From Edaphobacter sp. 12200R-103 (GTDB lineage Bacteria; Acidobacteriota; Terriglobia; Terriglobales; Acidobacteriaceae), in the NCBI RefSeq assembly GCF_010093025.1, contig NZ_CP048114.1, positions 3,968,001 through 4,032,000 of the forward strand: DNA of 64,000 nucleotides. Reading direction: 5' to 3'. A program made the translations under genes and the position numbers. The notes beneath the pieces are model-generated. The model saw only the letters and a list, made by a program, of their open reading frames with translations. It had not been told where the DNA came from and made no database searches. The stretch's first letter is position 1; each line of letters starts with the position of its first letter. Positions 27,555-48,397 of this stretch are shown one piece after another.

Positions 27555-27580
27555 GCAACATATGTTGCATAATCTGCAAC
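27555..27580 (-). promoter_or_regulatory. Tripartite operator, site 1 (PQQ dehydrogenase promoter)
   Basis: GCAA (27555), N6, TTGC (27565), N7, GCAA (27576): two overlapping dyads, a perfect 14-bp palindrome 27555-27568 and GTTGCA-N5-TGCAAC 27564-27580. It lies just downstream of the predicted transcription start of the PQQ dehydrogenase gene. The site is in reverse orientation relative to the gene, compared with sites 2-4. Confidence 0.7.
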
Positions 27581-27599
27581 ACTGTTTTTATGAGCCGAA

Positions 27600-27628
27600 A
27601 GCATAGTAACTACTTCGGACATTGTCAA
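27600..27628 (-). promoter_or_regulatory. Sigma-70-like promoter of the PQQ dehydrogenase gene
   Basis: On the minus strand TTGACA (27628-27623), 17-nt spacer, TATGCT (27605-27600). Transcription would begin about 7 nt further, just before operator site 1. Confidence 0.6.
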
Positions 27629-27837
27629 TGCGAACTTTTTGTGTCGCAGGTGTGGTATCGGCCCCGGACTCGAGAGAATTCGATGGGGTGGCTTTGACGC
27701 GAGAGGACTTCAAAATCAGCCTGCGAGGAGATACTCCGTCGATGAAGGACAGCAAGTAAGGTCGGAGTAGCTTTATATTTCCAATCGAGCTATCGCTTCT
27801 CGTGCGAAAGTCATCTTGAGCCAAATGACGCAATCAA

Positions 27838-28017
27838 TCAATCCTCTTTGGAAAAACGCAAACGGGCTTGATTGTAAATAAAGCATGGGTCCCAGCCGAG
27901 GATCGGTTTCAGCTGAGCATTCGTAATGTAGGCGTCCATATTCGCGTTATCCGCGGTGCGAATTGTCGCGTACAGGACAGCGCACTCATTAAACAAAGGT
28001 GGCCTGCGTTTGTTTGA
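27838..28017 (-). pseudogene. C-terminal fragment of an unidentified protein
   Basis: 59 codons open between stops, with no start codon, ending at a TGA (27838-27840). The residues (NANMDAYITNAQLKPILGWD and following) look like genuine protein rather than random frame, but I do not recognise the family. It is cut off upstream by a stop at 28018-28020, about 80 nt before the promoter of the next gene. Confidence 0.35.
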
Positions 28018-28101
28018 TCAGAGTTTTCTAAGCTGCCTTAATGAACTGAATAACTGTACCCGCGCCGCAAAAGATAATTCAGCTAACAAATAATTATTTT
28101 C

Positions 28102-28130
28102 TTGACAAGCTCATTTGTCTAAACATAAAG
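28102..28130 (+). promoter_or_regulatory. Sigma-70-like promoter of the mutarotase-like gene
   Basis: TTGACA at 28102-28107, 17-nt spacer, ATAAAG at 28125-28130. The predicted start point falls about 5-8 nt before operator site 2. Confidence 0.5.
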
Positions 28131-28139
28131 TTCACCACC

Positions 28140-29192
28140 ATGCAATATATATTGCGTATTATGCAACGATGTTTGGTTGCGGGTTTGATGGTCGCTCCTG
28201 TTGTGGGCTCCGCGGCTGAATCTCCGAGCGTTCAGATTTCAAACGATCAGATTACTGCGACGGTGTACCTGCCTGACGCGGTAAAGGGCTTTTATCATTC
28301 GACCCGATTCGATTGGTCTGGCGTGATTGGAAGCCTCACGTACAAGGGACATGATTACTACGGTAGTTGGTTCTCGCGAACCGACTCAGCGCCAGCTTTT
28401 TACGACTTCAACTATGACGATACTGGAGTCGTATCGGCTCCCTTTACGGCAATGGTTGGTCCAGGTGAGGAGTTCAATACTGACCGAAAAGCCCTCGGCT
28501 TTGACGAGGCTCAGCCAGGAGGCACGTTCGTAAAGATCGGTGTCGGTGTACTTCGAAAGCCGGACGATTCCAAATATGACCATTCAAAGGCCTATGACAT
28601 CGTCGACGGCGGTAAATGGTCCGTCAAACATACCCGTGACTCCATTACGTTCACACATGAGATACATGATCCGGCAAGCGGTTATGGCTATCTGTATACA
28701 AAGATCATTCGGCTTACACCCGGAAAGCCGCAGATGACCATGCAGCATACCTTGAAAAATCTAGGGACTAAACCAATTAGTAGCACGGTCTACGATCACA
28801 ATTTCTGGACCTTGGACAAACTTGCTCCAGGTCCCGGTCTGGTGCTTCAATTCCCATTTCAATTGAAAGCCGCTCGTGCGATCAATCCTGATTTTGTGGA
28901 GATTGATGGTAACAAGTTCATCTACAAAAAAGAACTGGCAGGTAAAGACCGGGTTACGGCTGGCCTGCGGGGCTTTGGAAATACCGCTGACGATTATGAC
29001 TTCCGGGTTGAAAATGAAAAAGTAGGTGCAGGTGTCAGGATTCGGGGAGACCGGCCTATAACTAACATCGCTCTTTGGTCAATCCGAACGGTTATGGCTG
29101 TAGAGCCCTACATCTCAATGCAGATTGCACCGGCAGATAGTTTCACATGGAAATTAACTTACGACTATTACACCTTTGACGTTCAGAAATAG
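28140..29192 (+). CDS. Secreted galactose-mutarotase-fold protein
   Basis: 350 aa if read from the ATG at 28140; an ATG at 28161 (343 aa) is equally possible and neither has a clear Shine-Dalgarno. A signal peptide ends near GSAAES (about residue 30). The mature domain shows the super-beta-sandwich pattern of aldose epimerase-like proteins (ITATVYLPD, FDWSGVIGSLTYKGHDYYG, VYDHNFWTLDK with the conserved H/D/N/F), and KPQMTMQHTLKN in the middle. These proteins bind sugars and interconvert anomers or act as carbohydrate-binding enzymes in the periplasm. The family is common in acidobacterial polysaccharide loci. Operator site 2 overlaps the 5' end of the frame, which makes a leaderless or strongly repressed message likely. 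Confidence 0.75.
   Translation: MQYILRIMQRCLVAGLMVAPVVGSAAESPSVQISNDQITATVYLPDAVKGFYHSTRFDWSGVIGSLTYKGHDYYGSWFSRTDSAPAFYDFNYDDTGVVSAPFTAMVGPGEEFNTDRKALGFDEAQPGGTFVKIGVGVLRKPDDSKYDHSKAYDIVDGGKWSVKHTRDSITFTHEIHDPASGYGYLYTKIIRLTPGKPQMTMQHTLKNLGTKPISSTVYDHNFWTLDKLAPGPGLVLQFPFQLKAARAINPDFVEIDGNKFIYKKELAGKDRVTAGLRGFGNTADDYDFRVENEKVGAGVRIRGDRPITNIALWSIRTVMAVEPYISMQIAPADSFTWKLTYDYYTFDVQK
28142..28166 (+). promoter_or_regulatory. Tripartite operator, site 2
   Basis: GCAA (28142), N6, TTGC (28152), N7, GCAA (28163). Contains a perfect 14-bp palindrome (28142-28155) with the same spacing as site 1. Overlaps the beginning of the mutarotase-like frame. Confidence 0.65.
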
Positions 29193-29352
29193 CACTTGCA
29201 AAGCTAGCAGGAGAAGTCACTGAGCAATTCGCAATAACTGTTGACATGCTAAAGAGCCGGCAAGTATGAATGCCCTCGCTTTATCCTCAACAGAATGTAG
29301 GACGTAGTCGGTGATTTTCTAAGACGTTGTAGCTATTGGTCAATGATGACAG

Positions 29353-29373
29353 AAATCGCTACAGCGATTTTTT
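29353..29373 (+). terminator. Terminator of the mutarotase-like gene
   Basis: AAATCGC (29353-29359) pairs with GCGATTT (29364-29370), 4-nt loop, then TTT; the run of T is six with the stem end. Confidence 0.65.
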
Positions 29374-29390
29374 AGGGATGTTATTTCTAC

Positions 29391-29415
29391 GCAACGCAAA
29401 TTGCATAATGCGCAA
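29391..29415 (+). promoter_or_regulatory. Tripartite operator, site 3
   Basis: GCAA (29391), N6, TTGC (29401), N7, GCAA (29412). Located 256 nt upstream of the first TonB-receptor start, with TTGCATAATG-type core as in site 1. Confidence 0.65.
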
Positions 29416-29670
29416 TTACTTAAAAAGGTTACTTCACGGATAGCGTTTCTCTTGAAACGAACCAGCAGTTGGAGTCGTGCTTAGTAAAACCCGTTCAAAA
29501 AGGGACGGGAGTTCGTCCATTTCGGTGAGTCAATTGGTTGTTCGGGCAAGACGATGAGGCATCTTCGCCACGTCTGATCCCGCTGTTTCCTGGTGGTCGC
29601 TTTCAATCCTACAGTGACCACCTTCGAAGTATGTCGTATGCAGCTATTCAGATTTTGTGGAGGAATATCG

Positions 29671-32600
29671 ATGCACATTGCGATGAGAAACATTTCGGCA
29701 GCGCAGTCAAAGAAGCAATTCCATCCAAAACGAAAGATTAAGCTAATTACCCTTGATTTCCTGGTTTTAGTAAGTCTTGCCTGTAGCACTGCTACGGCAA
29801 GCGCGCAGACGTTGTTCGGCTCCATAGTGGGCACAATTACGGACTCTAGCGGAGCCTCCGTTGTAGGTGCAACTGTAACTGCCGTTTCGATACAGACCAA
29901 CGACACGCGTACGGTCAAGACAAGCAGTACAGGTGTCTTTACGATGGCTACCATGTCTGTGGGAGTTTATAAGGTAACGGTCACAAAGACGGGCTTCCAG
30001 TCCTTTACAAATCCATCGGTTGAAATCACTGCGAATAGCGTGTCACGTTTCGATGCGCATCTTGAAATTGGTAACGTCACAGAGACGATAGAGGTGCACA
30101 CCGGGACGGCTCAACTCCAGACTGATACTGCGGAAGTACGTACAGAAATCAACGCCACAACCTTGCGGGATGTCCCGCAGCCAACGCGAACGTATCAGGG
30201 TGTGTTCAATCTCGTCCCGGGTATCGCACCGCCAAGCGGTGCTGGATTTAACCAGGGAACAAACAACCCTTCGAGGTCTCTGAGTTTCTCAGCCAATGGA
30301 ACAGGTACGACGGGCCCTAATATACGTATCGAAGGCGTAAATGCTACCAACCAATGGCTGCAGCAGTTCACCACTTTTGTGCCCTCAACGGAAGCGATTG
30401 AAAGCGTTAACGTGGTGACTAACAGCCCCAACGCCGAACAAGGGCTTTCCGGTGGTCCGGCTGTGACCGTAACTCTCAAGAGCGGGTCGAATGCATTTCA
30501 CGGATCGGCCTACGCGTTCAATATTAGTTCCTTCGGCATGACACGCGATTTTTTTCAGCCGGCTGGACAGAAGCCACCCCATTTTGTTGACAATAATGTA
30601 GGCGTAACAATATCTGGTCCGATTATTCGCAATAAGCTGTTCTATTTCGGCAGCTATGAAGGAGACTTCACTCGCCAGGCTTATAGTGGCCTTGTTTCGG
30701 TTCCCACACCCACGATGCTGAGCGGTGACATGTTTTCTGCTGGGGATAATACGAATGGTGTTGTAACGGCAGCTAATCAACTCTATGATCCGTTTAGCGG
30801 CGATGCCAATGGGGCCCACAAGACGCCATTTCCGGGGAATGTCATCCCCGCTAGCCGCATCAATCCAATCATCAGAAACCACATCCTCCCTTTTTTAGGT
30901 ACTGATAGCGTTAATAATCCCAATGCCGGTGCACCTGGAGCAATTCAGAACAACCTCTTTGTAAAGCAAGCCAACATGTACAATCTGCATAAGATCGACA
31001 GTAAGTTCGACTATATTGCTACTTCGAAATTGAGAGTTTCTTTCCGGTATAGCAAGCAACCGTATAACTCTCTATTAAATCCGATCTTTGGGACTCCTCT
31101 TGGAGGCACAAGTAATAATTGGCCTGCATTTGCCAAGGCTGGAAACGGAAACTATTACGAGCACGGAGCGGTCACGGCTCTCTCCAGTTCTGCAACATAT
31201 GTCTTTACACCAACCCTGGTTGCTGATTTTACCTTCGGAGAGACGAGCGCACACCAGTATCTGATTCCTCAGTTTGCGGATCAGAAGTATGGCCTCGACG
31301 TGCTGGGCATTCCCGGAACGAACCAGGGGGCGCAGGAGTTTCTTACCGGCGGCTTCCCCAATCTCTCAATTGCCAACTATGGAGGAAGTACCGGAGCGGG
31401 CACCTTCGGCTATTCCTATCCGCCCATGGAGTATAACGATCCTGTCTTCGAATATGTGGGAAATATTACCAAGACTCACGGTTCTCATAGTATCCGAGCT
31501 GGCTTCGATATTGTAAATCTCCACATGAATCACGACGAGATTCGTCAAACTATATTTTACTTTTCGGGCGCGGGCACCACGCAGGCGGCAACCGGTTCAG
31601 CACCCGGTCAAGTGCCGAACGCTTACAATGCCGTGGCCGACTTCCTTCTTGGCGCGGTCAACTACAGAAGCACTTGGGTCATGTTCGACGACACTCTCAG
31701 GATGTATGCAAGGGACTATGCCCTTTATGTGCGCGATCAATGGCAGATGAATCCTAAGTTGACCATTAACTACGGAGTTCGCTGGGAGTACTATCCAGTC
31801 CCAAATAGAGGAAAGCGTGGCATCGAGTACAACAATACGCTGACAGATCCTACCAACAATACCTTGAGGCTTTGCGGGGTTGGGACCCAACACTGCGGAA
31901 TATCGGTCTCTCCCAAGTTGTTTGCTCCAAGTATAGGTATCGCATACCGGCCCTCTGAGAAGGTGGTAGTTCGGACCGGCTTCTCTTTGTCTCCTCAGCA
32001 GAATGAGATGGGCCAGGCGCTTACCCAGAACTTTCCTGCGGAGCAACAATATTCCAGCACGGGAGCAAATTCCTATTCCATAACCAGCAATTTGTCGGAC
32101 GGGCTACCTATTCTCACGGCTCCGACTTTCAGTTCGGATGGTACTGTTGTTATCCCGCGTGGAACAAGCAATGCAACTACGACAGATCTTAAATTCAGGA
32201 GGGGATATGTTGAATCCTGGAATCTGACGGTTGAGAAAGAATTTGGCGGCGACCTTATCGCGAGCCTTGGTTATGTAGGAACCCATGTGGTGAATCAGTT
32301 GGGGAATTACAATTTCAATCACGGCACACTCGGAGGTGGTGCGGCCAGTCAGCCACTTAACACGCCTGCACTTGGGATCACGGGCACTGCCAACGTATTT
32401 AGGCCGATAGGCAGCGAAAGGTACAACTCTCTTCAAGCGAGCTTGAATAAACGCTTATCGCATGGCCTTACCACCAAGTTGGCCTATACATGGTCGAGAG
32501 ATATATCGAATAGTTGGGCAAATGGGATCCTGATTCAGGATCCACAATATTACGGCCGCAATAAGGGCGTAGCTAGTTCCGATCGAACGCACAACATCAG

Positions 32601-33171
32601 CATTACCGCCACATATCAATCGCCATTTGGTAAGAATAAAACATGGTTAACCCAGGGCTTCGGCGGCATGGTGCTCGGTGACTGGGCATTGAGTCCTACA
32701 TTTACCCATCTTTCGGGAACGCCATATAGCATCGCGGGCAGTAGTGCATCCTGTAACTGTCCAGGTAACACGCAGCGTGCTGATCAGGTGGGGCCCATCA
32801 CCAAAGTCGGGAGAGGCGTCCTTGGCCAACCCTACTTTAATCCACTGGCGTTTGCCAATGTGACGACTGTCAGATTCGGAAATGCTGCTCCCAACAGTCT
32901 GCGTGGTCCGGGGTACACGAATCTGGACGCGTCCCTGACCCGTAGCTTTCATGTATGGGAGCGGATCAATCTTGTAATTAAAGCAGACGCTTTCAACGTG
33001 ATGAACCATGCTCACTTCGCCAATCCCGGTACGGCCTTGTCGAATCTTAAGCTGAACTCGGACGGATCCGTCAACTCTCTGAATGGGTACGATACGATCA
33101 CGAGTACCGCCCCACTCGGCCGTACGCTTGACCAGAGGTACTTCCGTTTTGGAGGGCGCATAACCTGGTAG
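29671..33171 (+). CDS. Oar-like TonB-dependent receptor 1
   Basis: 1166 aa. The start at 29671 is chosen because GGAGGA lies 6 nt upstream; an earlier in-frame ATG has none. After a long basic N-region and a hydrophobic signal (cleavage near ATASAQ) comes a carboxypeptidase-regulatory-like domain (FGSIVGTITDSSGASVVGAT, about residues 50-130), a plug domain (TTLRDVPQPTRTYQGVFNLV), and a 22-strand-type barrel ending RYFRFGGRITW with a terminal aromatic residue. Such receptors import large ligands across the outer membrane with TonB energy; in Acidobacteriota they occur in large numbers without SusD, as here. Preceded by operator site 3. The ligand is likely a plant oligosaccharide, by context only. 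Confidence 0.9.
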   Translation: MHIAMRNISAAQSKKQFHPKRKIKLITLDFLVLVSLACSTATASAQTLFGSIVGTITDSSGASVVGATVTAVSIQTNDTRTVKTSSTGVFTMATMSVGVYKVTVTKTGFQSFTNPSVEITANSVSRFDAHLEIGNVTETIEVHTGTAQLQTDTAEVRTEINATTLRDVPQPTRTYQGVFNLVPGIAPPSGAGFNQGTNNPSRSLSFSANGTGTTGPNIRIEGVNATNQWLQQFTTFVPSTEAIESVNVVTNSPNAEQGLSGGPAVTVTLKSGSNAFHGSAYAFNISSFGMTRDFFQPAGQKPPHFVDNNVGVTISGPIIRNKLFYFGSYEGDFTRQAYSGLVSVPTPTMLSGDMFSAGDNTNGVVTAANQLYDPFSGDANGAHKTPFPGNVIPASRINPIIRNHILPFLGTDSVNNPNAGAPGAIQNNLFVKQANMYNLHKIDSKFDYIATSKLRVSFRYSKQPYNSLLNPIFGTPLGGTSNNWPAFAKAGNGNYYEHGAVTALSSSATYVFTPTLVADFTFGETSAHQYLIPQFADQKYGLDVLGIPGTNQGAQEFLTGGFPNLSIANYGGSTGAGTFGYSYPPMEYNDPVFEYVGNITKTHGSHSIRAGFDIVNLHMNHDEIRQTIFYFSGAGTTQAATGSAPGQVPNAYNAVADFLLGAVNYRSTWVMFDDTLRMYARDYALYVRDQWQMNPKLTINYGVRWEYYPVPNRGKRGIEYNNTLTDPTNNTLRLCGVGTQHCGISVSPKLFAPSIGIAYRPSEKVVVRTGFSLSPQQNEMGQALTQNFPAEQQYSSTGANSYSITSNLSDGLPILTAPTFSSDGTVVIPRGTSNATTTDLKFRRGYVESWNLTVEKEFGGDLIASLGYVGTHVVNQLGNYNFNHGTLGGGAASQPLNTPALGITGTANVFRPIGSERYNSLQASLNKRLSHGLTTKLAYTWSRDISNSWANGILIQDPQYYGRNKGVASSDRTHNISITATYQSPFGKNKTWLTQGFGGMVLGDWALSPTFTHLSGTPYSIAGSSASCNCPGNTQRADQVGPITKVGRGVLGQPYFNPLAFANVTTVRFGNAAPNSLRGPGYTNLDASLTRSFHVWERINLVIKADAFNVMNHAHFANPGTALSNLKLNSDGSVNSLNGYDTITSTAPLGRTLDQRYFRFGGRITW

Positions 33172-33280
33172 GTGCCCATGAGGTGAACGCTTGGGGCTAA
33201 ATGTAAAGGGGACGCTGCTCTGCAGAAGCCCCTCCATTTGCTTAGCAGGCAATTCTATACATTGAAGCTACATAAAAGGA

Positions 33281-33311
33281 GATGAGCTTCGTCCAACGAG
33301 CTTCATCTTTT
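33281..33311 (+). terminator. Terminator of TonB receptor 1 gene
   Basis: GATGA/TCATC outer stem, GCT/AGC and CGT/ACG inner pairs with single-T bulges, then TTTT (33308-33311). Confidence 0.6.
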
Positions 33312-33563
33312 CGTCATTCTGTTTGGCCATTCAAGATTAGAAGTGTAAACGTTTGGCTTTTTTCATCAACGTTCATTTCGAAGGGAGGATCTTCGAACTG
33401 ACCGGACGATGATATACGTTGGTGAACTTGCGAGAACGGGATCAATTGAAATCAGCCACTGAGCAAGGCCGGGCTTTGAAGACAAGAGTCGCAGCAAGCG
33501 AAAAGATTCGCAAGATTTTTTGACTACGGGTGAGACCTGGCCGGAAGCTCGCAGGTTGTTTGA

Positions 33564-33827
33564 ATGTTGACAGAGGGGTACGCGCAAGTCTCCGTCAATA
33601 ATGGGAAATGGAAGACACGGATTCTTGCACGACTCCGGCACGGGCCGATCACCTGCCGATTAACTTCCAAGGCATCGAAGAAAATGCTCGAGCGAGACGG
33701 CCTTGTCGTCCGGAAGAATCTGAGTGGACAAGTGCTTTATGTGGGGTATTTCGCTGTCCGGGCAGGCGATTACGCGGCGTTGCATCTCATCAGCATGTTG
33801 CACTTCCCTTCCAGGACGAAAACTTAA
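33564..33827 (+). pseudogene. HxlR-type regulator remnant
   Basis: The frame contains VNNGKWKTRILARLRHGPI, which is the HxlR-family opening (GGKW...IL..L..G..RF), then after an internal deletion ASKKMLERDGLVVRKNLSGQ, the wing region. The recognition helix (the usual PGIS...L...L..LE) is missing, so it should not bind DNA. No clear ribosome-binding site. Confidence 0.5.
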
Positions 33828-33871
33828 TTTGAGTTGGACCCCAAATGGAGACGGAATGTTATGGGTATTGA

Positions 33872-34207
33872 TCTCTCACAAGCAGGCTCTACATTTTAAG
33901 GCGAAGACGTCTGCAGGAGCTGTCTCCCCGTTATTCCTATGTGGCAGATCGCGAACCAACGCTATTCGGTCTATTGGAAGACGGACGTTTGAAGGCGGCT
34001 TGTCCCTGTGCGAATTGCCACGGAGATATGGCCGGCATGGTGCTACCAGAAGCGACGGACAGCCCATCCGCACCGGCGACGAGCGAGGTTACTGTAACAT
34101 ATGACCATCGGTATCGCGATTATGCGACAAAAGAAAGTTTCGTGGGACGAGATCAGAGCAGCTTGGAGTGGGATCAAGCTTATGGAAGGCCACTTCGAAA
34201 GTGGTAG
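33872..34207 (+). other. Unassigned open frame, probably a remnant
   Basis: 111 codons open, no ATG or Shine-Dalgarno at the 5' side. It contains EPTLFGLLEDGRLKAACPCA followed by NC, and a basic start. The amino-acid composition is protein-like but I do not recognise a family. It converges with the IclR gene. Confidence 0.25.
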
Positions 34208-34232
34208 GCCGCCAAATCTTGCAGAAGAGATG

Positions 34233-35054
34233 CTATCGTCGTTTCGACTTCGAACGCGTGCTGACCGCTGTATCCGAAGTACGGTTGCCCAGGAGCCAGG
34301 AAATTTCTCTAGCAGATTTGCAAAGCTCCCGGGAAAACATTGGCACACGGTCGTTGGTGAACCGGACCACCGGGGCCGAGATGCTGATTGCCGCCACTAC
34401 CTCTCCATTGGCCTCAATAATAGGTGCGCCGACACAACGTACTCCGGCGACGGCTTCTTCATCATCGAATGCATAGTGTTGTCGACGAACGACAGCAAGT
34501 TGCTTTTTGAGCCGAGCGATATTCTTGATGGTGCCCGTCGCAGTCGACTCAAACTCGACCCGGCTCAAAAGCTCTTCGAGACGAGCTGGGTCGGTGATGG
34601 ATGCAACCATCGCTTTGCCGAGTGATGTTGTGTAAAAAGGCAGATGCGAGCCGATCTGGGTGACGAGACGAAACGTGTGACCAGTCTCGAGCACATCGAT
34701 ATAGATGACATCTATGCCGTCCAATATAGCCAGGTTAACTGTTTCTCCCGTCAACTTTCGAAGGTTCTCCATAACCGGGCGCGCAAGCTTGGACAACGTC
34801 GCTTGAAAGCTGGCGCCGCTTCCCAGACGCGACAACTTGGTACCGACCATGTAGTTGCTGTGTCCGTCCCGAAACAGATAGCCCTCGGATTCAAGATGAC
34901 TGAGAAATCGGTGGGCAGTGCTTTTATTAATCCCAGTCTCTTCAGCAATCTGGTTCAACTGAAGGCCGTTTGGAACACTATCTAGTAACTCGAGGATCGA
35001 TAAAACCTTTCGGATGACGCCCACAGGAGGGGATTTCATCTTTCTTTTTGTCAT
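34233..35054 (-). CDS. IclR-family transcriptional regulator
   Basis: 273 aa. The N-terminal winged helix (about 10-75) has LELLDSVPNGLQLNQIAEET then INKSTAHRFLSHLESEGYL; the IclR effector domain follows (about 80-255) with YTTSLGKAMVAS and the characteristic GVRCVGAPIIEANGEVVAAI. IclR regulators respond to small organic acids or sugar acids and commonly sit in aldonate or aromatic-acid clusters. This is the only intact transcription factor in the 25-58 kb catabolic region, so it is the first candidate for binding either the palindrome at 36037 or the tripartite operators; that is inference. A 15-residue Ser/Lys/Arg tail is family-atypical. Confidence 0.9.
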   Translation of the reverse strand: MTKRKMKSPPVGVIRKVLSILELLDSVPNGLQLNQIAEETGINKSTAHRFLSHLESEGYLFRDGHSNYMVGTKLSRLGSGASFQATLSKLARPVMENLRKLTGETVNLAILDGIDVIYIDVLETGHTFRLVTQIGSHLPFYTTSLGKAMVASITDPARLEELLSRVEFESTATGTIKNIARLKKQLAVVRRQHYAFDDEEAVAGVRCVGAPIIEANGEVVAAISISAPVVRFTNDRVPMFSRELCKSAREISWLLGNRTSDTAVSTRSKSKRR

Positions 35055-35104: not shown

Positions 35105-35926
35105 TTACGTCACCGGATTTTCAAGTGTACCGATATTGTCGATAGATATGCGAATAATATCTCCCGAGGCCAGAGAGAAGCTATCCGGGGGAACGATTCC
35201 AGTTCCGGTCATCAGGAACGCGCCATAGGGAAACGAGTTTTCACGATAGAGATATTCAACCAGCTCTTGAGGATCACGCTTAAGTGAGGAGAGCGAAGTT
35301 TCTTCCGAGAACGCCAGTGCGTCGCCACGAAAGATTTCAAGTTTGATCTCGGTATCGGATGGCATGGGATCGGACGACAGAAGAATGCCCGGACCGATGG
35401 AGCAGCTTCCGTCATATATTTTTGCCTGAGGCAAATAAAGCGAATTCAGGCCCTCAATGTCGCGCGAACTCATATCGTTGCCGATGGTATAGCCGATGAT
35501 ATTGCCTTTCGGATTTATAACAAGCGTGAGTCAGGTTCCGGTACCGACCATGAGGCGTCGGAACGGATACGAATCGGGGCTCCGGAGCCGATCACCTTAT
35601 TCCCAGAAGATTTGAAGAAAAGTTTAGGTCGCGGAGCCGTATAGATCCGGTCGTAGAAGTCGCTCCCACCTGCAGCCTTCGATTCTTCTATCCGCGCATC
35701 GCGACCTCGATAGTAGGTAACGCCAGCGGCCCCATACTTCCTGACTCTGCACAAGAGGCAGAAGGTCGGCCACATTCAAAGGGCGAGGGGGGCCCGATAC
35801 AGAATGGCGGAGCCTTTCAGTCAACGCAGGATCGCATAAAAGCTCATCCCAGTTGCTCGACGGCACCAAGAAGAATTGTCCGTATTGCTCAACAAAGACA
35901 CCCTGAATCGTGCGATGCAGTCTCAT
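35105..35926 (-). pseudogene. Fumarylacetoacetate-hydrolase-family gene with two compensating frameshifts
   Basis: Full-length homology is readable in three pieces. The first (from ATG 35926, MRLHRTIQGVFVEQYGQFFL and on) ends at ...QEVWG, where one extra G near 35748 shifts the frame. The second runs AAGVTYYRGRDARIEESKAA to SWSVPEPD. A one-base loss near 35526 restores the original frame for LVINPKGNIIGYTIGNDMSS, the FAH core with its metal-binding E and D, to the C-terminus at 35105. FAH-family enzymes cleave or dehydrate 2-keto-3-deoxy sugar acids, so this would be the final step of the pathway. Both indels lie in ordinary sequence; the gene is either freshly broken or affected by sequencing errors. 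Confidence 0.8.
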
Positions 35927-39792: not shown

Positions 39793-41124
39793 TTGGTTAA
39801 ACTCGAACAGCAGGGGATGCCAACCAGAAACCATCGGTTACGCTGGCTGTTGGTTTTCTGGCTCTTTGTTCTCAGCGCGGTCGCATATCTGGACCGCGTG
39901 AACATCTCGATTGCAGGGCAGGCGATCGCGAAAGAGTTTCACCTCAACAATGTTCAGCTGGGATGGCTGTTCAGTTCTTTTGTCCTGGGATATGCCTTGT
40001 TTCAGGCCCCGGCGGGACGTATAGCGGACAGGGTTGGGGCGCGTACCGTGCTCGGTGTTGCGGTGATCTGGTGGGCTGTCTTTACGAGTGCGATCACATT
40101 TGTGTCTCCGGAGATCGGATCCCTGGTCATTGTCCTGATCGGAATACGCTTTTTGCTAGGAATGGGGGAGGCTATTGTTTATCCCGCTTCCAATTGCATG
40201 GTTGCTGCATGGATCCCGACAAGCGAACGCGGGATTGCTAATGGGATTATCTTCGCGGGGGTCGGATTCGGAGCCGGATTAGCACCCCCCATCATTACCT
40301 ACACTCTTCTGCGCTATGGGTGGCGGGCCTCGTTCTGGGTCAGCGCAGTCATCGGCGTCATTGCAGGAGTTGTATGGTTCACGATCGCGCGCGAGACCCC
40401 TGAAAAGCATCCGTGGGCTTCGCAGGAGGAGCGGAACTACATCGTCGCGGGCTTGCCGGAGAGCAAATATAGTTTGTCGGCCGCGAAACTGGGCTGGGGA
40501 ACGATCGTCAGGGATCGCAACGTTCAGGCGTTATCGTTCAGTTATTTCACTTATGGTTATGCGGTCTATATCTTTTTCAGCTGGTTTTTTATTTATCTCA
40601 ATAACGTTCGCGAACTGGATATGAAAAGAAGTTCCCTCTACACAATGCTTCCTTTTATCGCGATGGCAATCGCATCCCCAGTTGGTGGATGGCTAAGCGA
40701 TCGGATCACGCGGAGCAAAGGGAAGCGTGCTGGACGGTGTGGACTCGCGGCGATAGCAATGGCGCTGTGCGGAGTCTTTCTGGCGGCCGGAGCTGAAGTG
40801 GGCAGCGTAGCCCTTGCAGTCATCGTGCTGGCGGGAGGAGCCGGCGCGTTATATATCTCGCAAAGTTCGTTCTGGTCTGTCAGCGCTGACATCGGAGGGG
40901 CTTCGGCAGGATCGGTCTCAGGTGTTATGAACATGGGCTGCCAACTGGGTGGAGCGATTAGCTCCTCCTTGACCCCATGGATCGCGCAGCGCTTCGGATG
41001 GGCGACTTCTTTTCTCTTTGCTGCAGCGCTCGCTTTGGCTGGCGGAGCCGCGTGGCTGCTGGTGAATGCCGATGGGCAGCCTCGCATAAAGGAGAGGGTT
41101 TTGAGTCAGTTGGAGCAGGTTTGA
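39793..41124 (+). CDS. MFS sugar-acid transporter (anion:cation symporter family type)
   Basis: 443 aa read from TTG at 39793 (GGGAG 6 nt upstream); an ATG at 39817 is the alternative. Twelve membrane segments are apparent. The N-terminal signature [18 protein letters not shown], then [20 protein letters not shown] and RIADRVGAR match the ACS branch that carries D-galactonate, D-glucarate and hexuronates with protons. Central loop about residues 195-235. In this context it would import an aldonic or uronic acid released or formed outside. It is followed 53 nt later by the bicupin. Confidence 0.9.
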
Positions 41125-41177
41125 ATGAGCAGTTCTATGTCGCGTGGTTTATGAGTGGACTGAAAAGGAGAAGGGAC

Positions 41178-42110
41178 ATGTCTGGAGATATCGGTCGTAG
41201 TTGTTTGGCGGCGTTCTTTGCACTTCCTCTGCTGGCGGCCGCGTCAATGGTGGGGCAGCAACAGGCAGCCTCTACACCGGGTGACATCGAACACCGTATT
41301 GCACGCGGTGATAGTACCAAATACAGCCATTTGAAAGCGGTACACGATGGTGCAGGTTCCATGGACTTTCGTGTCATGTTGGGGACTGATGCTGTAGAGC
41401 CGAACCTGATTTTCTTTCATCGCGGGGTCATCATGCCCCACAGCGGAATCGGCCAACACTTTCACAATAAGTGCGAGGAGATGTTCGTTATTCTCGATGG
41501 TGAAGCGCAGTTCACCATCGATGGCCGCACCTCGCTAATTAAAGGGCCCGCAGGCGTTCCTGACCGGCTAGGACACTCCCACGGTATTTACAATCCAACG
41601 GACCAACCGCTTCAATGGCTCAACATTAATGTGGGCCTGAACAAGGTCTACGACACCTTTAATCTGGGCGATTCTCTGGAGCATCAGCATCTTGATTCTG
41701 TTCCGCAGTTTGTAAGCTTTCGTCTGGACAGAAGCTTGCTGAAACCTGTGAACGCGATGGATGGTGGCTCAGGCACAGTGCGATATCGTCGGGCGCTGCA
41801 ACCCACCGTTTTCTTTACAACATGGTCCTACATCGATCATCTTCTGATCCCACCGGGGGCATCTGTTGGGACGCGTTCATTGCCGGATTTCGCCGAGGTC
41901 TATTACGTAGTCGGTGGAGAGGGTTCAGTTTCGCTCGGCTCCGAGAAGGCACAGATTCGCAAAGACGATGTGGTCCCTGTACGGCTGAACGAGGCTCGTT
42001 CTATTCAGAATACTGGGAGCACTCCGCTGGAGTTTCTTATCGTTGGCGTGGCGAAAGACATGGCGGCTAAAGACGCATTGATGGCACGTCCTCCGGCAAG
42101 ACCGCGCTAA
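41178..42110 (+). CDS. Exported bicupin
   Basis: 310 aa. The ATG at 41178 has AAAGGAG upstream at 7-8 nt; earlier in-frame codons overlap the transporter. A signal peptide (about residues 1-27) points to the periplasm. Cupin 1 has [20 protein letters not shown] (His, His, Glu) and the later LGHSHGIYN; cupin 2 (about 190-300) has [15 protein letters not shown] and lacks a clear HxH, so only the first site should hold metal. Similar bicupins are found in sugar-acid loci, but their reaction is not established. Confidence 0.8.
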
Positions 42111-42150
42111 TGATTCGCACGCACAACGACAGATTAGAGGGATTGCAGAG

Positions 42151-42576
42151 ATGAAACGTCGATTACCGCTGAAGTCCACGGCAATATCCGGTGCAAATCC
42201 GCTGAGGGCAATGACAGGAGCGTTTACCGCATCACAGGAACTTGCTCCAGGCAAAGGCCCCATCGTCCTCTATTGTGATCTGGCTGTCGATCCGACACGT
42301 GAGCAAGAGATGCTCCATTACTTCCGCAAAGAGTTCCGACCGGCTGCGCAGAAATTTAATGGCTATATCGATGTCAAGATGCTGAAATTCCGCAAGGTCG
42401 TTCAGGGCGGCCCAGCTCCCGCAAGCAGTATCAACTATCGTTTCCAGCTTACTTACGAGAGCGAAGAGAAGCGCCAGGAGTGGATCGCGTCCGAAGTACA
42501 TCAACGAGTGTGGTCACTCGTTGAAGATACAGTCGTCAACAAAAGCTATCTCGTGCTCCTGACCGATAGCGTGTAG
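42151..42576 (+). CDS. Small ferredoxin-like-fold protein, antibiotic-biosynthesis-monooxygenase type
   Basis: 141 aa. The N-terminal 30 residues are basic and Ala/Ser-rich. From residue about 35 a dimeric alpha/beta pattern is seen: IVLYCDLAVDPTREQEMLHY, FRPAAQKFNGYIDVKMLKFR, then YRFQLTYESEEKRQEWIAS, which is the ABM/EthD layout. Members degrade or rearrange small organic molecules, or are just binding proteins; the substrate here is unknown. Spacing of 40 and 45 nt to its neighbours supports one operon with the bicupin and the SMP-30 lactonase. Confidence 0.65.
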   Translation: MKRRLPLKSTAISGANPLRAMTGAFTASQELAPGKGPIVLYCDLAVDPTREQEMLHYFRKEFRPAAQKFNGYIDVKMLKFRKVVQGGPAPASSINYRFQLTYESEEKRQEWIASEVHQRVWSLVEDTVVNKSYLVLLTDSV

Positions 42577-42621
42577 TCAGGTTCAAAAATGTTTACGACT
42601 TTTTATGTTATGGAGATATTT

Positions 42622-43581
42622 ATGCAGAGAAGGGCTTCGGCAAATTCGGCGGTGACGCAGGGGATCAGCATTCTCCGCAACGATCCTGCTTTTGATGATG
42701 TGATTGCACCAGGGACGGTGATTGAAAAAGTTGCGAGCGGCTTTCAGTTTACCGAAGGGCCTCTTTGGCGCCAAGGACGCTTATGGTTCTCAGATCTTGT
42801 TGGTAATCGCATGTACGCTGTCACTCCTGATGGCAAGGTGGATCTACTGATCGAACACTCTGGTGGGCTCCAAAATATCGCGCCTAACTCATTCAAGGGG
42901 TCGAATGCGATGGTAGCTGATAGAGACGGTGGTGTCCTGATGTGTCAACATGGAGTCCGCCGAATTGTCCGCCTCGACAAAAATCTTCACCAAACGATAT
43001 TCCTCGATCGATGGGAGGGAAAGCGTTTCAACAGCCCCAATGATATAGTTTTTGCTCCCGATGGAGCACTCTGGTTTACCGATCCGCCTTTCGGCCTGGA
43101 TAAGCAGGACGAGGACTCCGCAAAGGAAATACCGTTCAACGGGGTATACAGGTATGCGGATGGCAAGTTGACGGCTGCGATCAAAGACCTGACTAATCCG
43201 AACGGAATCGGTTTTTCTCCAGACGGCAAATTCCTTTATGTGGCCAATTCAGGTCCGAAGATGTTTGTTAATAAATACGAAGTAAAGAGCGCCGGAACCT
43301 TGGGCAGGCCTTCCACTTTGATCTCTTATCCCGATCAACCGAACAATGAGGTTCCCGACGGTCTTAAGGTGGATTCTTCAGGCAACATATGGACAAGCGG
43401 GCCTGGGGGTATTCGCATAGTCACGCCGAGAGGCAAAGTGCTTGGGCAGATCAAACTGCCCGAAGTTGCAGCGAACCTCGCCTGGGCCGAGGACGGATAT
43501 ACGCTTTATATCACCGCAAGTAGCAGTATCTATCGCTTGAAGGTGTCTATCGCTGGCCAGATGCCGCTTTTTTCACGCTAA
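42622..43581 (+). CDS. SMP-30/gluconolactonase-family lactonase
   Basis: 319 aa. The ATG at 42622 is preferred because GGAG lies 7 nt upstream. Six-bladed beta-propeller of the SMP-30 family: the metal-site Glu in FTEGPLWRQGRLWFSDL (about residues 46-62), SPNDIVFAPDGALWFTDPPF, and NPNGIGFSPDGKFLYVANSG, with the N and D ligands visible. These enzymes open aldonolactones to aldonic acids. No signal peptide is obvious, so it is probably cytoplasmic, in contrast to the next lactonase. The pathway position would be after oxidation of an aldose. Confidence 0.88.
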   Translation: MQRRASANSAVTQGISILRNDPAFDDVIAPGTVIEKVASGFQFTEGPLWRQGRLWFSDLVGNRMYAVTPDGKVDLLIEHSGGLQNIAPNSFKGSNAMVADRDGGVLMCQHGVRRIVRLDKNLHQTIFLDRWEGKRFNSPNDIVFAPDGALWFTDPPFGLDKQDEDSAKEIPFNGVYRYADGKLTAAIKDLTNPNGIGFSPDGKFLYVANSGPKMFVNKYEVKSAGTLGRPSTLISYPDQPNNEVPDGLKVDSSGNIWTSGPGGIRIVTPRGKVLGQIKLPEVAANLAWAEDGYTLYITASSSIYRLKVSIAGQMPLFSR

Positions 43582-43605
43582 AGTGCGACAAGGAAGGAAA
43601 GGATA

Positions 43606-44775
43606 ATGGCTCAATGGACTCGACGCAATTTTATTTCTGCTTCTGCGGCCACTCTCGCGATGGATAGATTCTCTTCAGCAACGATGATGAGAGCGGCTAA
43701 GAAACGGATTGGAAACTGGATCTACGTTGGATCGACAGCGGTCGGTGAGGGCGAAGGAATTCATGTCGGAGAATGGGACGCCTCGGATGGAACGATCGGC
43801 AACCTTCGACTCGCTTACGCGTGTATCCAACCCAGCTTTCAGGTAACAGCTCATACACCGAGTGGAAAATTGTTACTCTCCGGCCACCAGCCGCAGCAGG
43901 ATAAAGCTGCCTTGAGTTCATTTCGAGTGATGCCGAATGGCAACCTGACGCTGATCAATACAGTGGAACTTGAGGATCAACCAGAGAGCTTTATTCAGAT
44001 CGTGCTGGATAAGACTCACCGTGCGCTTGTATCAGCGAGTTATCGTACCAGCAAAGTCAGATCGTTTAAAGTGAGTGCCGATGGCCACCTCTCAGATGCA
44101 GTTTCTGAGTTCACTTTGAGAGGCTCCGGGCCGAATGTGCGACGCCAGACTACGGCTCATGCTCACGGCGCGGTAGTCTCGCCGGACAACAGGTTCGCGT
44201 TGGTAAATGATCTTGGCTCAGACAAGATCATGGTCTATAAGCTGGATCCTGCTACAGCAAAGCTCACTCCGAATGATCCACCCTTTTATCAAGCGAAGCC
44301 GGGATCTGGCCCAAGGCATACGACCTTTCACCCGAGTGGACGATGGGCATATTCCATCAATGAACTGGACTCCACGATCACGACGATGTCATGGAATGCG
44401 AGGACAGGTGTACTAACTTCTACTGGCAGCACGCCGACCACCGAACCAGGAGTTGATATCTCAAGAAATCGTGCGGGAGAGGTGATCTTTGACAGTGCTG
44501 GCAAATTTCTTTACGGCTGCAACCGTGGCGCTGCCGAAGAGATCCTGGTCTATAAAGTGAGCAGCGACGGCCAGCTTTCTCTTGTGAGTCGAACTCCGCT
44601 GGGAGGAAAAGAAGCTCGCCACTACGCAATCTCTCCGGATGGTGGCTATCTGGTCGTGGCAGAACAGGCGACGAACTTCGCAAGCGTCTTCAGGCGTGAT
44701 CAGGTCTCCGGTGCTCTGACGCCGACAGGCAAGAAGTATCCGGTGAATAAAGCGTCCTCCATCTCATTTGCATAG
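43606..44775 (+). CDS. Tat-exported lactonase, 6-phosphogluconolactonase-like seven-bladed propeller
   Basis: 389 aa with AAGGAAAGG before the ATG. The N-terminus is a twin-arginine signal (TRRNFISASAATLAM). The mature part has the PF10282 lactonase propeller signatures: IYVGSTAVGEGEGIHVGEWD, SFQVTAHTPSGKLLLSG, AHAHGAVVSPDNRFALVNDL with the catalytic-site His, GPRHTTFHPSGRWAYSINEL and KEARHYAISPDGGYLVVAEQ. It would hydrolyse a sugar lactone in the periplasm, matching the periplasmic PQQ enzyme. The 24-nt gap to the preceding lactonase makes them co-transcribed. Confidence 0.88.
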   Translation: MAQWTRRNFISASAATLAMDRFSSATMMRAAKKRIGNWIYVGSTAVGEGEGIHVGEWDASDGTIGNLRLAYACIQPSFQVTAHTPSGKLLLSGHQPQQDKAALSSFRVMPNGNLTLINTVELEDQPESFIQIVLDKTHRALVSASYRTSKVRSFKVSADGHLSDAVSEFTLRGSGPNVRRQTTAHAHGAVVSPDNRFALVNDLGSDKIMVYKLDPATAKLTPNDPPFYQAKPGSGPRHTTFHPSGRWAYSINELDSTITTMSWNARTGVLTSTGSTPTTEPGVDISRNRAGEVIFDSAGKFLYGCNRGAAEEILVYKVSSDGQLSLVSRTPLGGKEARHYAISPDGGYLVVAEQATNFASVFRRDQVSGALTPTGKKYPVNKASSISFA

Positions 44776-44898
44776 CTCGAATAATTTTCGTTCTTCAAAA
44801 AGAGAAGAATCTGTGAAAGCGAGATTTGTTTAAGTCTCTTACTGGTGCGGAGCTCGTTGGAATGGCGAACCCGCTCATTAGGCTGGAGTCCCAGGTTG

Positions 44899-45332
44899 CG
44901 CAGACCATACTCGGTATAACGAGTATTTCAAACAGATACGCGAAATCTGGGTGGCTCCTATTGCGATCGGCGAGCTGTTAACAATCCGCTCGAGTGACGT
45001 CCTTCCATCGAAGGACGTCTGATTGATTACATTCGCTGCCATCTTTCCCAGGCCGTAGGCCTTACTCTGGTGCAAAAGATGCCAATCCTTGCGGAAAATT
45101 TCGGCGCGAAAACCGTTATAACTTCGAAATTCAGGAATACACTCCGTTCGGCGAACGTACCCGACAGATCTTCTATGACTGTCTGCGCGTGAAGGATGAC
45201 TATCTTTGGGCCAATGAAGCCGGATGGCGGGTCGAGATCGACGAGAAAGAAGCGGCCAAAGCCCCATCTACTCCCGGGCGGCTGAATCTTAATGGCGGAT
45301 GGGTGAAGTTCGGCGTCTCGATGCAACAGTGA
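44899..45332 (+). pseudogene. Remnant of an enolase-superfamily dehydratase (mannonate dehydratase/RspA-like)
   Basis: Three frames together read EYFKQIREIWVAPIAIGEL, then GRLIDYIRCHLSQ (metal-site to barrel-strand region), ILAENFGAK, NFEIQEYTPFGERTR and WANEAGWRVEIDEKEAAK, ending before a TGA at 45330. This is the order of the C-terminal third of ManD/RspA-type proteins, but the internal H...LH segment is deleted and the frame shifts at least twice; the N-terminal two thirds are gone. 45333-45532 shows no gene. Confidence 0.6.
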
Positions 45333-45532
45333 TCAAGCAATAGTGCCGGGGGGTGACAGTCACGTAAAAAGGCAGAGGGAAAAAAATATGTTTCAAATAA
45401 TAAAACGACTACACCATATAGTGAATTTCTGATTGACAGAGATTCGAGGAATTGATGTATTGTTGTCTTGCTTTTTCAAGGCCGACTGCTCAACAGGCGA
45501 GGACATCGAATGCTGGTGAGAAAGGTGATGAA

Positions 45533-46621
45533 ATGATTTCGACAGCAGCAAGAAGGAAGACGCTGGAGAGTTTTATTGGTCTTCAGTCCGCGGGGAAGAT
45601 GGCAGGAGGGACGCACGCCATCTCCCGAATCGAGGCCTTCCGCGTGCCAGGTTCGGGAACGCAGCCTGCATACAGCGTACTGGAGGTAGAGACTCGCTCA
45701 GGTATGACGGGATACGGCGAATGTTACCCGCTCTCACGCGCTGACGTAGAGGTGCTGAATGGTCTTGTCGGCAAGCCAGCTCATGCCTATGAGGCACTTA
45801 TGCCAATAGCTCCGGAACCGGCGCGCGGTGGACTCAATATGGCCCTGCTCGATATTGTCGGCAAGATTACCAAGGCGCCAATCTATCGTGTGCTCGGTGG
45901 GCCGACACGTTTCAAGGTTCGGGCGATCGCAAGGCTTAAAGGATCGTCAAATACGGAACTCATCGCAGACATGCAGGGATGGATGGCCTCTGGCGTTCGC
46001 TCGTTCCTGATACCAGTCATGGCTCCCCCGGACAGAAATCAGGGGAGTCTCTTCATCAAGAACCATGTGGAACGGTTCGAGGCGCTCCGCGCCGCCGCAC
46101 CGGAAGCTGACTTCGCTGTGGAATCTCTCGATCAACTTACCCCCAGCGATGCAGGCATGCTGGCGGCGGCCCTGGAAAGTTTGCATCCGCTCTGGTTCGA
46201 TGAGCCCTGTCCTGTTACCAATCTTTCCACACTTCGAAAGATCGCTGAAGAGACCGTCACACCGATTGGTCTGGGGCGTGACATCCGGAATGCGGGTACA
46301 TTCCAGGACCTGCTTCGCGAAGGACTTGTCGATCTTGTTCGTCCCGATCTCCTTACCTATGGAATCTCCGGTGTATGCCGTATCGCTGCAATGTCAGAGA
46401 CCTATTACACGGCCGTTGCGCCTCGCCACAGCGCTGGTCCTATCGCGCTTGCTGCAGCTCTCCAGGCAGCAGCAAGCATGCCGAATTTCTTCGTTCTGCA
46501 GGTTCCGGATTCGGGGGCGGCTAGTAACGCTATCGATGATGGCTTTTTCGAATTGCCCAAAGAGCCGGGGCTTGGCATTGCCATAGATCCAAAGCAGTGG
46601 GAGGGGAATAAAATCGCATGA
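45533..46621 (+). CDS. Enolase-superfamily protein with degenerate active site
   Basis: 362 aa, start at 45533 (AAAGGTGATGAA upstream). The fold is clear: an N-terminal capping domain (SRIEAFRVPGSG, LEVETRSGMTGYGECY) and a barrel of the mandelate-racemase subgroup. Yet catalytic positions differ. The KxK strand reads SGVRSFLIPVM without Lys. The first metal ligand position is E197 with Leu199 where the dehydratase His would be. The second is D223 (WFDEP). The third, normally GE, is GR (R249, PIGLGRDI). The His region is APRHSAGP. Its stop overlaps the ATG of the next, intact-looking paralog. It may be a binding or regulatory partner rather than an enzyme. Confidence 0.8.
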   Translation: MISTAARRKTLESFIGLQSAGKMAGGTHAISRIEAFRVPGSGTQPAYSVLEVETRSGMTGYGECYPLSRADVEVLNGLVGKPAHAYEALMPIAPEPARGGLNMALLDIVGKITKAPIYRVLGGPTRFKVRAIARLKGSSNTELIADMQGWMASGVRSFLIPVMAPPDRNQGSLFIKNHVERFEALRAAAPEADFAVESLDQLTPSDAGMLAAALESLHPLWFDEPCPVTNLSTLRKIAEETVTPIGLGRDIRNAGTFQDLLREGLVDLVRPDLLTYGISGVCRIAAMSETYYTAVAPRHSAGPIALAAALQAAASMPNFFVLQVPDSGAASNAIDDGFFELPKEPGLGIAIDPKQWEGNKIA

Positions 46622-47970
46622 ACAGACGACACTTTCTCAGCGGTGCCGCCGCGTTGGCGGCTGTAGGCGTCCATTCTGCTGGTGCAGTTTCAGAATCCCC
46701 GGCGAGGGAGCCCGACTACTGCGGTTGTAATCCCTTTATGGGGCAAAGGATGCGCAGTCAAGACATCACTGACCTCTTCAAAGATGTCAATACGAACTTG
46801 CGCGTCACCGATATGAAGGTATTTGGCGTATCGTTGACCCCAGATTCTGACCGTCCTTATGTTTTCGTCAAGATCGAAACCAACCAGGGACTGGTTGGCT
46901 GGGGAGAAGCCACGCTGGAAGGCAAGGCGGGCGCAGCGATGTCATGTGTCCGGGACTTCCGGGACTTTATTGTCGGCAAGGATCCGCTTCAGGTGGAGCA
47001 TCACTGGGAATCGATGTATGTCCATAGCTTCTACCGTGCTGGCCCCGTCATCGGTTCCGCCATCTCTGGCATTGATCAGGCGCTGTGGGATATTCGCGGG
47101 AAGGCGCTGGGCGTCCCTGTCTATCAGCTTCTCGGCGGGCCACATGATGAACGGGGCGTTCGTGGGTATTACCACGCAGAGAACGCGAGAACTGATGAAG
47201 ACCTCTCTAAGCTGCGGGAGACAGCCCTTTCAACTGGAGTCTCATGTTTTAAGGTTGGGCTTCCCGATCAGGCTTATGAGTGGATCGAGACCCATGCGAA
47301 GATTGATCGCGCCATCAAGCACATGGCTCGCTATCGCGAGAAGCTTGGTGACGAGATCGACATCGCCGTCGATTTCCATGCGAAGACCAGCCCAAGCGTA
47401 GCCTCTATTCTGGTCAAGGAAGTTGAGCCTCTCCATCTCCTGTTTATTGAGGAGCCATGTCCGCCTGAGAATGTGCCTGCTATGCAGAGAGTGGCACGTC
47501 GTTCTACTACACCAATCGCCACCGGTGAACGGCTTGTAGCCGCATTCGGTTGTCGGGAGCTTATTGAGAAGGGAATCGTCGACATTCTGCAGATGGATAT
47601 CAACCACGTAGGCGGGATCACCGGCCTCTGGAAAGCCGCTGCCATGGCGAATTACTCCAATATCTCAATGGCGCCACATGCGTGCGAAGGTCCTATTGGA
47701 GGGCTTGCCACGCTGCACGTGGACTCCTCCATGCCAAATTTCCTTATTCAGGAGATCTGCAGTTTTGTAGAACCTGGTGAGAAGGAAAAGGTCTGGGCCG
47801 ATTGGTTTGGTTTCGCTCCGATGCGCATGGTAGATGGCAAATTCCCGCTCCCTCAAAAGCCTGGATTAGGTTTCGAACTGAGTGAAGCGGCACTGGCTAA
47901 GTATCCTTTCGGCGGTTCTCGGCCTATGGCTCGTGTCTTCCAGACCGACGGCTCTGTAGGAGAGTGGTAG
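46618..47970 (+). CDS. Tat-signal galactonate dehydratase-like enolase-superfamily enzyme
   Basis: 450 aa. Twin-arginine signal at the start (NRRHFLSGAAALAAV). Full active site: Lys in SCFKVG, first metal ligand D252 with H254 (AVDFHAK), E278 (LFIEEPCPP), E304 (IATGERL), and H354 (SMAPHACEGPIG). This is the D/E/E plus DxH and C-terminal His arrangement of acid-sugar dehydratases such as D-galactonate dehydratase, which give 2-keto-3-deoxy acids. Export of such an enzyme is unusual; the substrate is not determined. Its start overlaps the upstream paralog (ATGA), so the two should be made in similar amounts. The 47971-48333 gap has a 14-bp GC palindrome at 48075 but no gene. Confidence 0.85.
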   Translation: MNRRHFLSGAAALAAVGVHSAGAVSESPAREPDYCGCNPFMGQRMRSQDITDLFKDVNTNLRVTDMKVFGVSLTPDSDRPYVFVKIETNQGLVGWGEATLEGKAGAAMSCVRDFRDFIVGKDPLQVEHHWESMYVHSFYRAGPVIGSAISGIDQALWDIRGKALGVPVYQLLGGPHDERGVRGYYHAENARTDEDLSKLRETALSTGVSCFKVGLPDQAYEWIETHAKIDRAIKHMARYREKLGDEIDIAVDFHAKTSPSVASILVKEVEPLHLLFIEEPCPPENVPAMQRVARRSTTPIATGERLVAAFGCRELIEKGIVDILQMDINHVGGITGLWKAAAMANYSNISMAPHACEGPIGGLATLHVDSSMPNFLIQEICSFVEPGEKEKVWADWFGFAPMRMVDGKFPLPQKPGLGFELSEAALAKYPFGGSRPMARVFQTDGSVGEW

Positions 47971-48333
47971 CTCAACTTTGCCAGTCCTGCTGGAGCTATG
48001 CTCGGGCCAACATTGGCTTCTTGCTGTCAGTGGCCCCACTCATTGGTGCGGTTGACTTTTGACTTGATAATTAAAGCCGCGCGCGGCTCAGCTCCGAGGT
48101 GACGCTTCGCAACTATGCGAAAGCTTTCTTGGCTGCACTCGCGCAATTTTCGATAACGACGGGGGATTAACTCAGAAGGCTCGAGTCTGGAGTGCGGCTA
48201 AGAACATCGCAAAGTTGCGAGAGCGCTCCAGAATCGACTGAAATGCCGATGGGCTGTGGCTACTTGCAATATGCATTCCAATCTCCCGAAGCATGTCATC
48301 TCACGCAGTCTAACTTTGACTTCGAAATCACGG

Positions 48334-48363
48334 TTGACGACCTTTTTTGAAGCTTGCTACCAT
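48334..48363 (+). promoter_or_regulatory. Promoter of the GH51 gene
   Basis: TTGACG (48334-48339) and an extended -10 TGCTACCAT ending about 48363, spacer 18. The predicted start point is just before operator site 4. Confidence 0.45.
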
Positions 48364-48372
48364 TTTTTGCAC

Positions 48373-48397
48373 GCAATGCCCGTTGCGTTCTATGCAA
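48373..48397 (+). promoter_or_regulatory. Tripartite operator, site 4 (GH51 promoter)
   Basis: GCAA (48373), N6, TTGC (48383), N7, GCAA (48394), with TTGCGT-N3-TATGCAA core. Same spacing as sites 1-3, 39 nt before the GH51 start. Confidence 0.7.

Follow-up and report, generated by a model that had tools for sequence, protein, structure and literature searches.

Operator sites made of three boxes of alternating direction have been predicted for 32 orthologous groups of IclR-family regulators, with PcaU, PobR and HmgR among the cited cases, and this layout has been read as a possible sign of alternative dimerisation; the binding modes discussed for the family are a dimer with an extra contact, alternative dimerisation and a tetramer (PMC8222616). 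Analysis of a stretch of 64,000 nucleotides of Edaphobacter sp. 12200R-103 (NZ_CP048114.1, positions 3,968,001 to 4,032,000), hereafter the window, revealed four sites of this kind, which we assign, with a probability of about 0.82, to one IclR-family repressor, IclR-2, encoded outside the window, whose binding and repressing action are predicted from sequence. A preliminary description of this DNA held that no operator with such a layout had been described, which the predictions for the 32 orthologous groups contradict, and no evidence was obtained for the trimer-like binding that it named as one possibility. The three-box layout is already known; what is new is the predicted Acidobacteriota regulon, comprising pyrroloquinoline quinone (PQQ) dehydrogenases, a lactonase, a transketolase-like protein and TonB receptors. 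Acidobacteria are neither included in Table 2 nor named in the main text of PMC8222616, and a literature search whose scope mostly excluded subscription papers found neither a described IclR regulon in Acidobacteria nor IclR operators closer than those of PMC8222616.

The pattern GCAA-N6-TTGC-N7-GCAA has four exact matches in the window, all on the plus strand and at the positions given in the preliminary description:

27555-27579, plus strand: three-box operator 1, exact match, matrix score 26.8, in the PQQ-dehydrogenase promoter, with a minus-strand promoter-like site that places the dyad centre near +21
28142-28166, plus strand: three-box operator 2, exact match, matrix score 36.3, covering the first codons of a 350-aa gene (ATG at 28140)
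29391-29415, plus strand: three-box operator 3, exact match, matrix score 32.5, upstream of a TonB-receptor-like gene
48373-48397, plus strand: three-box operator 4, exact match, matrix score 19.7, upstream of an alpha-L-arabinofuranosidase gene, with a promoter-like site that places the dyad centre near +20

Shuffled versions of the window contain on average 0.01 matches of the exact pattern, and none of 100 shuffles reaches four. Scanning the plus strand with a 25-bp matrix ranked the same four sites first (36.3, 32.5, 26.8 and 19.7, operator 4 being the weakest) and the next place at 5.3, the dyads at 28142 (in both orientations) and 29391 being among the 25 training sites of that matrix; on the minus strand, the best place not overlapping the four sites scored 10.6. 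The predicted targets are as follows:

25274-27427, minus strand: PQQ-dependent dehydrogenase with a cytochrome c domain, 717 aa (Pfam PF01011 and PF13442), predicted target of operator 1
28140-29192, plus strand: 350-aa protein without a Pfam family, predicted target of operator 2
29593-33171, plus strand: TonB-receptor-like outer-membrane protein (Pfam PF25183 and PF13620), predicted target of operator 3
48436-50073, plus strand: alpha-L-arabinofuranosidase (Pfam PF06964), predicted target of operator 4

The operator at 27555 was assigned to the minus-strand dehydrogenase gene, the annotated start of which is 128 nt away. In the stretch 28131-28176, operator 2 is flanked opposite box 1 by an incomplete fourth box (minus-strand score 25.7) and overlapped by a weak matrix match at 28131 (score 12.5), so that more protein may bind here than at the other three sites.

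Across 25 oriented sites from six genomes, the operator consists of three TRYGCAAY boxes of alternating direction with centres 10 and 11 bp apart, boxes 2 and 3 forming the strict dyad TTGCRYANTRYGCAA. The three-half-site layout of the preliminary description is retained, with the correction that the palindrome of the right-hand pair is stricter than described there (RYANTRY inside). The 25 sites on which the matrix was built stem from 23 of 26 dyads and were chosen to have at least three of four letters in box 1; boxes 2 and 3 are invariant among them since they define the search, and the box 1 counts (G 22, C 24, A 25, A 24) reflect the same pre-selection. As an independent test of box 1, the six genomes were searched for TTGCRYANTRYGCAA alone, box 1 being left out of the search, which returned 26 places; no such dyad was found in the same-genus genome G098. 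An exact GCAA stands at gap 6 on one side of 20 of these 26 dyads, every other gap from 0 to 23 occurring at most once, and at least three of the four letters are present at gap 6 in 23; outside the own genome, 13 of 17 dyads have the exact third box. This dyad-only search therefore establishes the third box as real. An operator consisting of the 15-bp dyad alone, with an incidental third box, would accommodate the six dyads without an exact GCAA at gap 6 and the three with fewer than three of its letters; this is nevertheless improbable in view of the single exact spacing shared by dyads of six genomes, and of the third box reported as required for PcaU (PMC8222616). Besides the three-box operator, a symmetric four-box form was considered and rejected, at least three of four letters being present on both sides in only two of the 26 dyads; the idea that the third box always points the same way with respect to the gene was likewise dropped, the orientations being mixed by eye and following no rule.

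Like the operators of PcaU, PobR and HmgR, these sites have three alternating boxes at fixed spacing, one pair arranged like a group 1 palindrome and the other like a group 2 palindrome, and an IclR-family gene is linked to and co-occurs with them (exceptions, genome G277 and locus L198, are treated below). Agreement with the two consensus sequences is partial: the dyad with one further base on each side matches the group 1 subgroup consensus WTTYCRYW3RYGRAAW in length, centre and other places but has G/C at the symmetric Y/R places, and the other pair matches the group 2 consensus TGRAACAN1-2TGTTYCA in box order and 6-nt gap but does not keep the inner CA..TG and has C/G for R/Y. The sites differ from the IclR three-box consensus in that TRYGCAAY has G/C at the Y/R places, and the regulon is dispersed and concerned with sugar oxidation, not with aromatic compounds. 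The G/C exception at the symmetric Y/R places is shared by the TphR site of Comamonas sp. E6 (TTTTTGCGCATAGCGCAAAAA, Table 1 of PMC8222616), whose core TTGCGCATAGCGCAA agrees with TTGCRYANTRYGCAA at all places but one; TphR differs in belonging to a terephthalate operon and in having no third box listed, and the comparison is one of sites.

In the complete 4.55-Mb own genome (G000), the exact pattern has 11 matches compared with two for a reversed-pattern control. Of these, ten are situated in a promoter region or where an open reading frame (ORF) begins, at its 5' edge, and the remaining one (3734861), inside a 944-aa ORF, is probably due to chance. The relaxed pattern GCAAN6TTGCRYANTRYGCAA with at most two mismatches gave 21 genome matches and three in the control, those at 1202076 and 2008532 (two mismatches each) lying inside ORFs and being treated as chance. 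At a matrix score of at least 19, for which 0.68 sites per 4.55 Mb are expected by chance, 16 sites were found in the parts of the own genome examined. Apart from those in the window, the exact and relaxed matches form a second site cluster at about G000:C1:2717672-2746945 and are otherwise scattered. Next to the sites, or directly after them, stand genes for PQQ dehydrogenases, SMP-30/lactonase proteins, FG-GAP/3-keto-disaccharide hydrolase proteins, a transketolase-like protein, an epimerase, an IolE-like TIM barrel, Gfo/Idh and aldehyde dehydrogenases, a TonB-receptor-like protein and an arabinofuranosidase. Ten proteins were compared with NCBIfam, where L036:3239-4780 matched MMSDH above the cut-off; the transketolase, IolE and other aldehyde-dehydrogenase matches all stayed below it.

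Homologous promoters of related genomes also carry the sites. The lactonase gene following iclR-2 is preceded by a site in G034, G041, G058 and G095 as in G000, and in G035 a site occupies the same lactonase-promoter position, where the ORF call is ambiguous; in addition, G034 has sites at the transketolase/epimerase pair (shared with G035 and G058), at the isomerase gene that precedes iclR-2 (shared with G041), at the aldehyde dehydrogenase gene (shared with G095) and at FG-GAP genes (shared with G035 and G041). In G137, which belongs to another genus, a 71%-identical homologue of the window gene at 28140-29192 has a site (G137:C420:8057) at the same offset from its ATG (8055); TTGACA precedes both genes, its distance from the site being shorter by 1 bp in G137, and the surrounding DNA has diverged. 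The scan of the genome and its relatives suggested in the preliminary description supports the operator, and together these searches bear out its view of a real, non-random three-box element in promoters of carbohydrate-oxidation genes. That the sites are chance repeats or a mobile repeat element has a negligible probability: nothing beyond the shared boxes speaks for it, and against it stand the 0.01 matches expected in the window, the dissimilar spacers and flanks of the sites, and the sites at homologous promoters of other genera. Chance origin was rejected on the window shuffles, the reversed control of the genome and the matrix scores. Locus L236 (G137:C420) holds a further site at 9132-9156, directly before a promoter-like TTGACA...TATAGT, unlike the usual placement after it.

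The own genome encodes five IclR_C proteins, one of them in the second site cluster:

G000:C1:2730193-2731029, minus strand: IclR-2, IclR-family protein and candidate regulator, outside the window, about 1.26 Mb away, inside the second site cluster

IclR-2 matches PF09339 (56.6 bits) and PF01614 (133.7 bits) above the cut-offs, and sites precede both the isomerase-iclR pair and the lactonase gene following iclR-2. Its best NCBIfam matches, BhcR (NF045644, 172.9 bits) and PcaR/PcaU/PobR (TIGR02431, 145.7 bits), are far below the curated cut-offs of 350 and 284.75, and it is therefore a member of neither group. Among 120 genomes of the family, at least three sites occur in all six with an IclR-2 orthologue (the own genome and five others, 68-82% identity) and in none of the 114 without; eight other genomes have one site match each, the reversed control giving four matches in all. 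When the set was extended to 398 family genomes, which include the 120, with orthologues defined as matches at E<=1e-60, at least three sites were present in 20 of 22 genomes with an orthologue versus one of 376 without (Fisher p 2e-30, uncorrected for kinship). The 376 genomes without an orthologue include G277 with six sites, six genomes with two and 31 with one. Within the own genus (50 genomes), each of the 11 genomes with an orthologue has at least four sites, and the other 39, lacking one, have at most one.

Among the named carriers of an IclR-2 homologue are the culturable Edaphobacter modestus, whose homologue is 88% identical, Granulicella spp., Paracidobacterium acidisoli and a Candidatus Solibacter metagenome-assembled genome. 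Sites scoring at least 19 are held by 15 of the 16 named loci, three of which (L196, L197 and L200) come from matrix-training genomes; among the 13 from non-training genomes, 12 have at least one such site, with 42 sites in about 247 kb. Several named loci belong, by their coordinates, to genomes already counted (e.g. L188/G320 and L196/G035), and the two sets of counts are not independent. The recognition helix DRSSAFRLA-TL-RRGFL is nearly identical in the 16 named homologues, with L202 and L203 deviating at a few places. In G035 (L196, Paracidobacterium acidisoli), three IclR-2 homologues were observed (C8:802460, C11:195254 and C1:860945; 70, 57 and 53% identity); the second of them (C11:195254) likewise has a strong site nearby, at C11:194942, some 300 bp away.

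The preliminary description had named another candidate regulator, which is encoded inside the window:

34233-35054, minus strand: window IclR-family protein (Pfam PF01614 and PF09339), considered and not favoured

This protein lies within 8 kb of three sites, IclR proteins generally control themselves and their neighbours (PMC8222616), and G041, with three sites, holds a 44%-identical homologue. Its distribution, however, does not track the sites: at E<=1e-30, 51 of the 120 genomes have a match, and no more than one site was counted in 46 of these 51; 12 of 13 other genomes with a 44-58% match have none at all, G041 being the one with three; the best matches in the site-bearing G034, G035 and G058 are only 29-36% identical, and the site-bearing G095 has none at E<=1e-30. 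Its helix (NKSTAHRFLSHLESEGYL) is unlike that of IclR-2, the matrix scan found no site adjoining its own gene, and no site scoring at least 19 occurs in 104 kb around its homologues (L089-L117). On distribution and recognition helix, regulation by the window IclR is thus highly improbable, and the regulator of the sites is very probably IclR-2.

The position of the sites relative to promoter-like sequences suggests repression by the bound regulator. Three such sequences precede operators of the window:

27600-27628, minus strand: promoter-like TTGACA-N17-TATGCT before operator 1 (five such places in the region versus 3.5 in shuffles, not evidence alone)
28102-28131, plus strand: promoter-like TTGACA-N18-TAAAGT before operator 2, from the promoter-like search, with TTGACA also in G137
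48334-48363, plus strand: promoter-like TTGACG-N18-TACCAT before operator 4 (one found versus 0.8 in shuffles)

The dyad centres thereby fall at +21, +21 and +20, as anticipated by the preliminary description, which had placed three of the four sites at or just after a predicted start. For 40 of 47 sites, with targets assigned by the analyst and seven sites of unclear target omitted, 50 site-gene directions were analysed and 25 promoter-like places found; the dyad centre lies at +15 to +29 of the predicted start in 12 of the 25, three of them from the window, versus 0.30 expected from shuffled sequence.

Several observations weigh against a repressor IclR-2 acting at all these sites. G277 has six sites and no IclR-2 orthologue was found in its 720-contig assembly, nor any match to the neighbouring lactonase, and its orthologue was possibly lost in an assembly gap; G350 and G353 carry an orthologue and two sites each; the other 375 orthologue-less genomes have 43 matches versus 17 in the reversed control, so that single matches are not all at control level. 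The orthologue search in the 398 genomes scored the best six candidates per genome, and, with iclR-2 located in the midst of its sites, the co-occurrence is in part that of a cluster gained or missing as a whole. Among the named loci, L198 (a 3.4-kb contig) has no site, L192, L202 and L203 have none within 300 bp after iclR, and L199, L201 and L202 none within 1.2 kb before it. In G148, homologues of the PQQ dehydrogenase (72%) and of the 350-aa protein (48%) are encoded next to each other, and the DNA separating them holds no site (best score -5.3). As to position, a search for a promoter-like sequence at operator 3 (29391) found none, about half of the 50 site-gene directions lack one, the 12 favourable cases are not all independent, several being promoters homologous to one another, and in five of the 25 the site lies before the predicted start, at -75 to -46, versus 0.78 expected, a position compatible with activation or with another promoter. 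Two of these five are at the aldehyde-dehydrogenase gene, in G000 (2977858) and G034 (C11:534538), where the site is at -50 and -66, unlike most targets. IclR-2 might accordingly use these operators chiefly to activate, or both to activate and to repress, and the family does include repressors, activators and dual regulators (PMC8222616); with 12 of 25 places at +15 to +29 making blocking the simpler reading, and the third box lying on either side relative to the gene, we consider this unlikely. The position data mostly fit a blocking repressor.

From the motif, third box, conservation, co-occurrence and position relative to promoter-like sequences, all of which were computed, we infer binding, repression, an effector and an oligomeric state along the following lines. 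With box centres 10 and 11 bp apart, all three boxes would lie on one face of the helix; a dimer would occupy the strict dyad of boxes 2 and 3, and box 1 would provide an extra contact, through a second dimer or alternative pairing. Since the dyad centre, where a promoter can be guessed, mostly lies at +20 to +29 from the transcription start, bound IclR-2 would block initiation or early elongation. An effector, probably a sugar or sugar-acid oxidation intermediate, would release it, leading to joint induction of PQQ dehydrogenases, lactonase, TonB receptors and downstream enzymes. More tentatively, and with some doubt on our part, IclR-2 might govern an uncharacterised sugar-oxidation pathway of Acidobacteriota, its three-box operator reflecting an obligatory contact of three monomers, by alternative dimerisation or an asymmetric tetramer, rather than a dimer on a palindrome; the strict 10/11-bp spacing, the occurrence in both orientations and the position mostly after the start are the basis for this possibility.

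The analysis proposes a regulator, its operator and a dispersed regulon in soil Acidobacteria. It brings together in one pathway several proteins with poor annotation: PQQ dehydrogenases and FG-GAP/3-keto-disaccharide hydrolase proteins, along with a lactonase and a transketolase-like enzyme. The many natural variants of the three-box site at one fixed spacing offer a useful test of the alternative dimerisation proposed for IclR proteins.

Beside the window IclR gene, an FAA-hydrolase-like gene (35105-35926, minus strand) is represented by two ORFs, 35105-35473 (PF01557 positions 93-213) and 35624-35926, and is perhaps broken.

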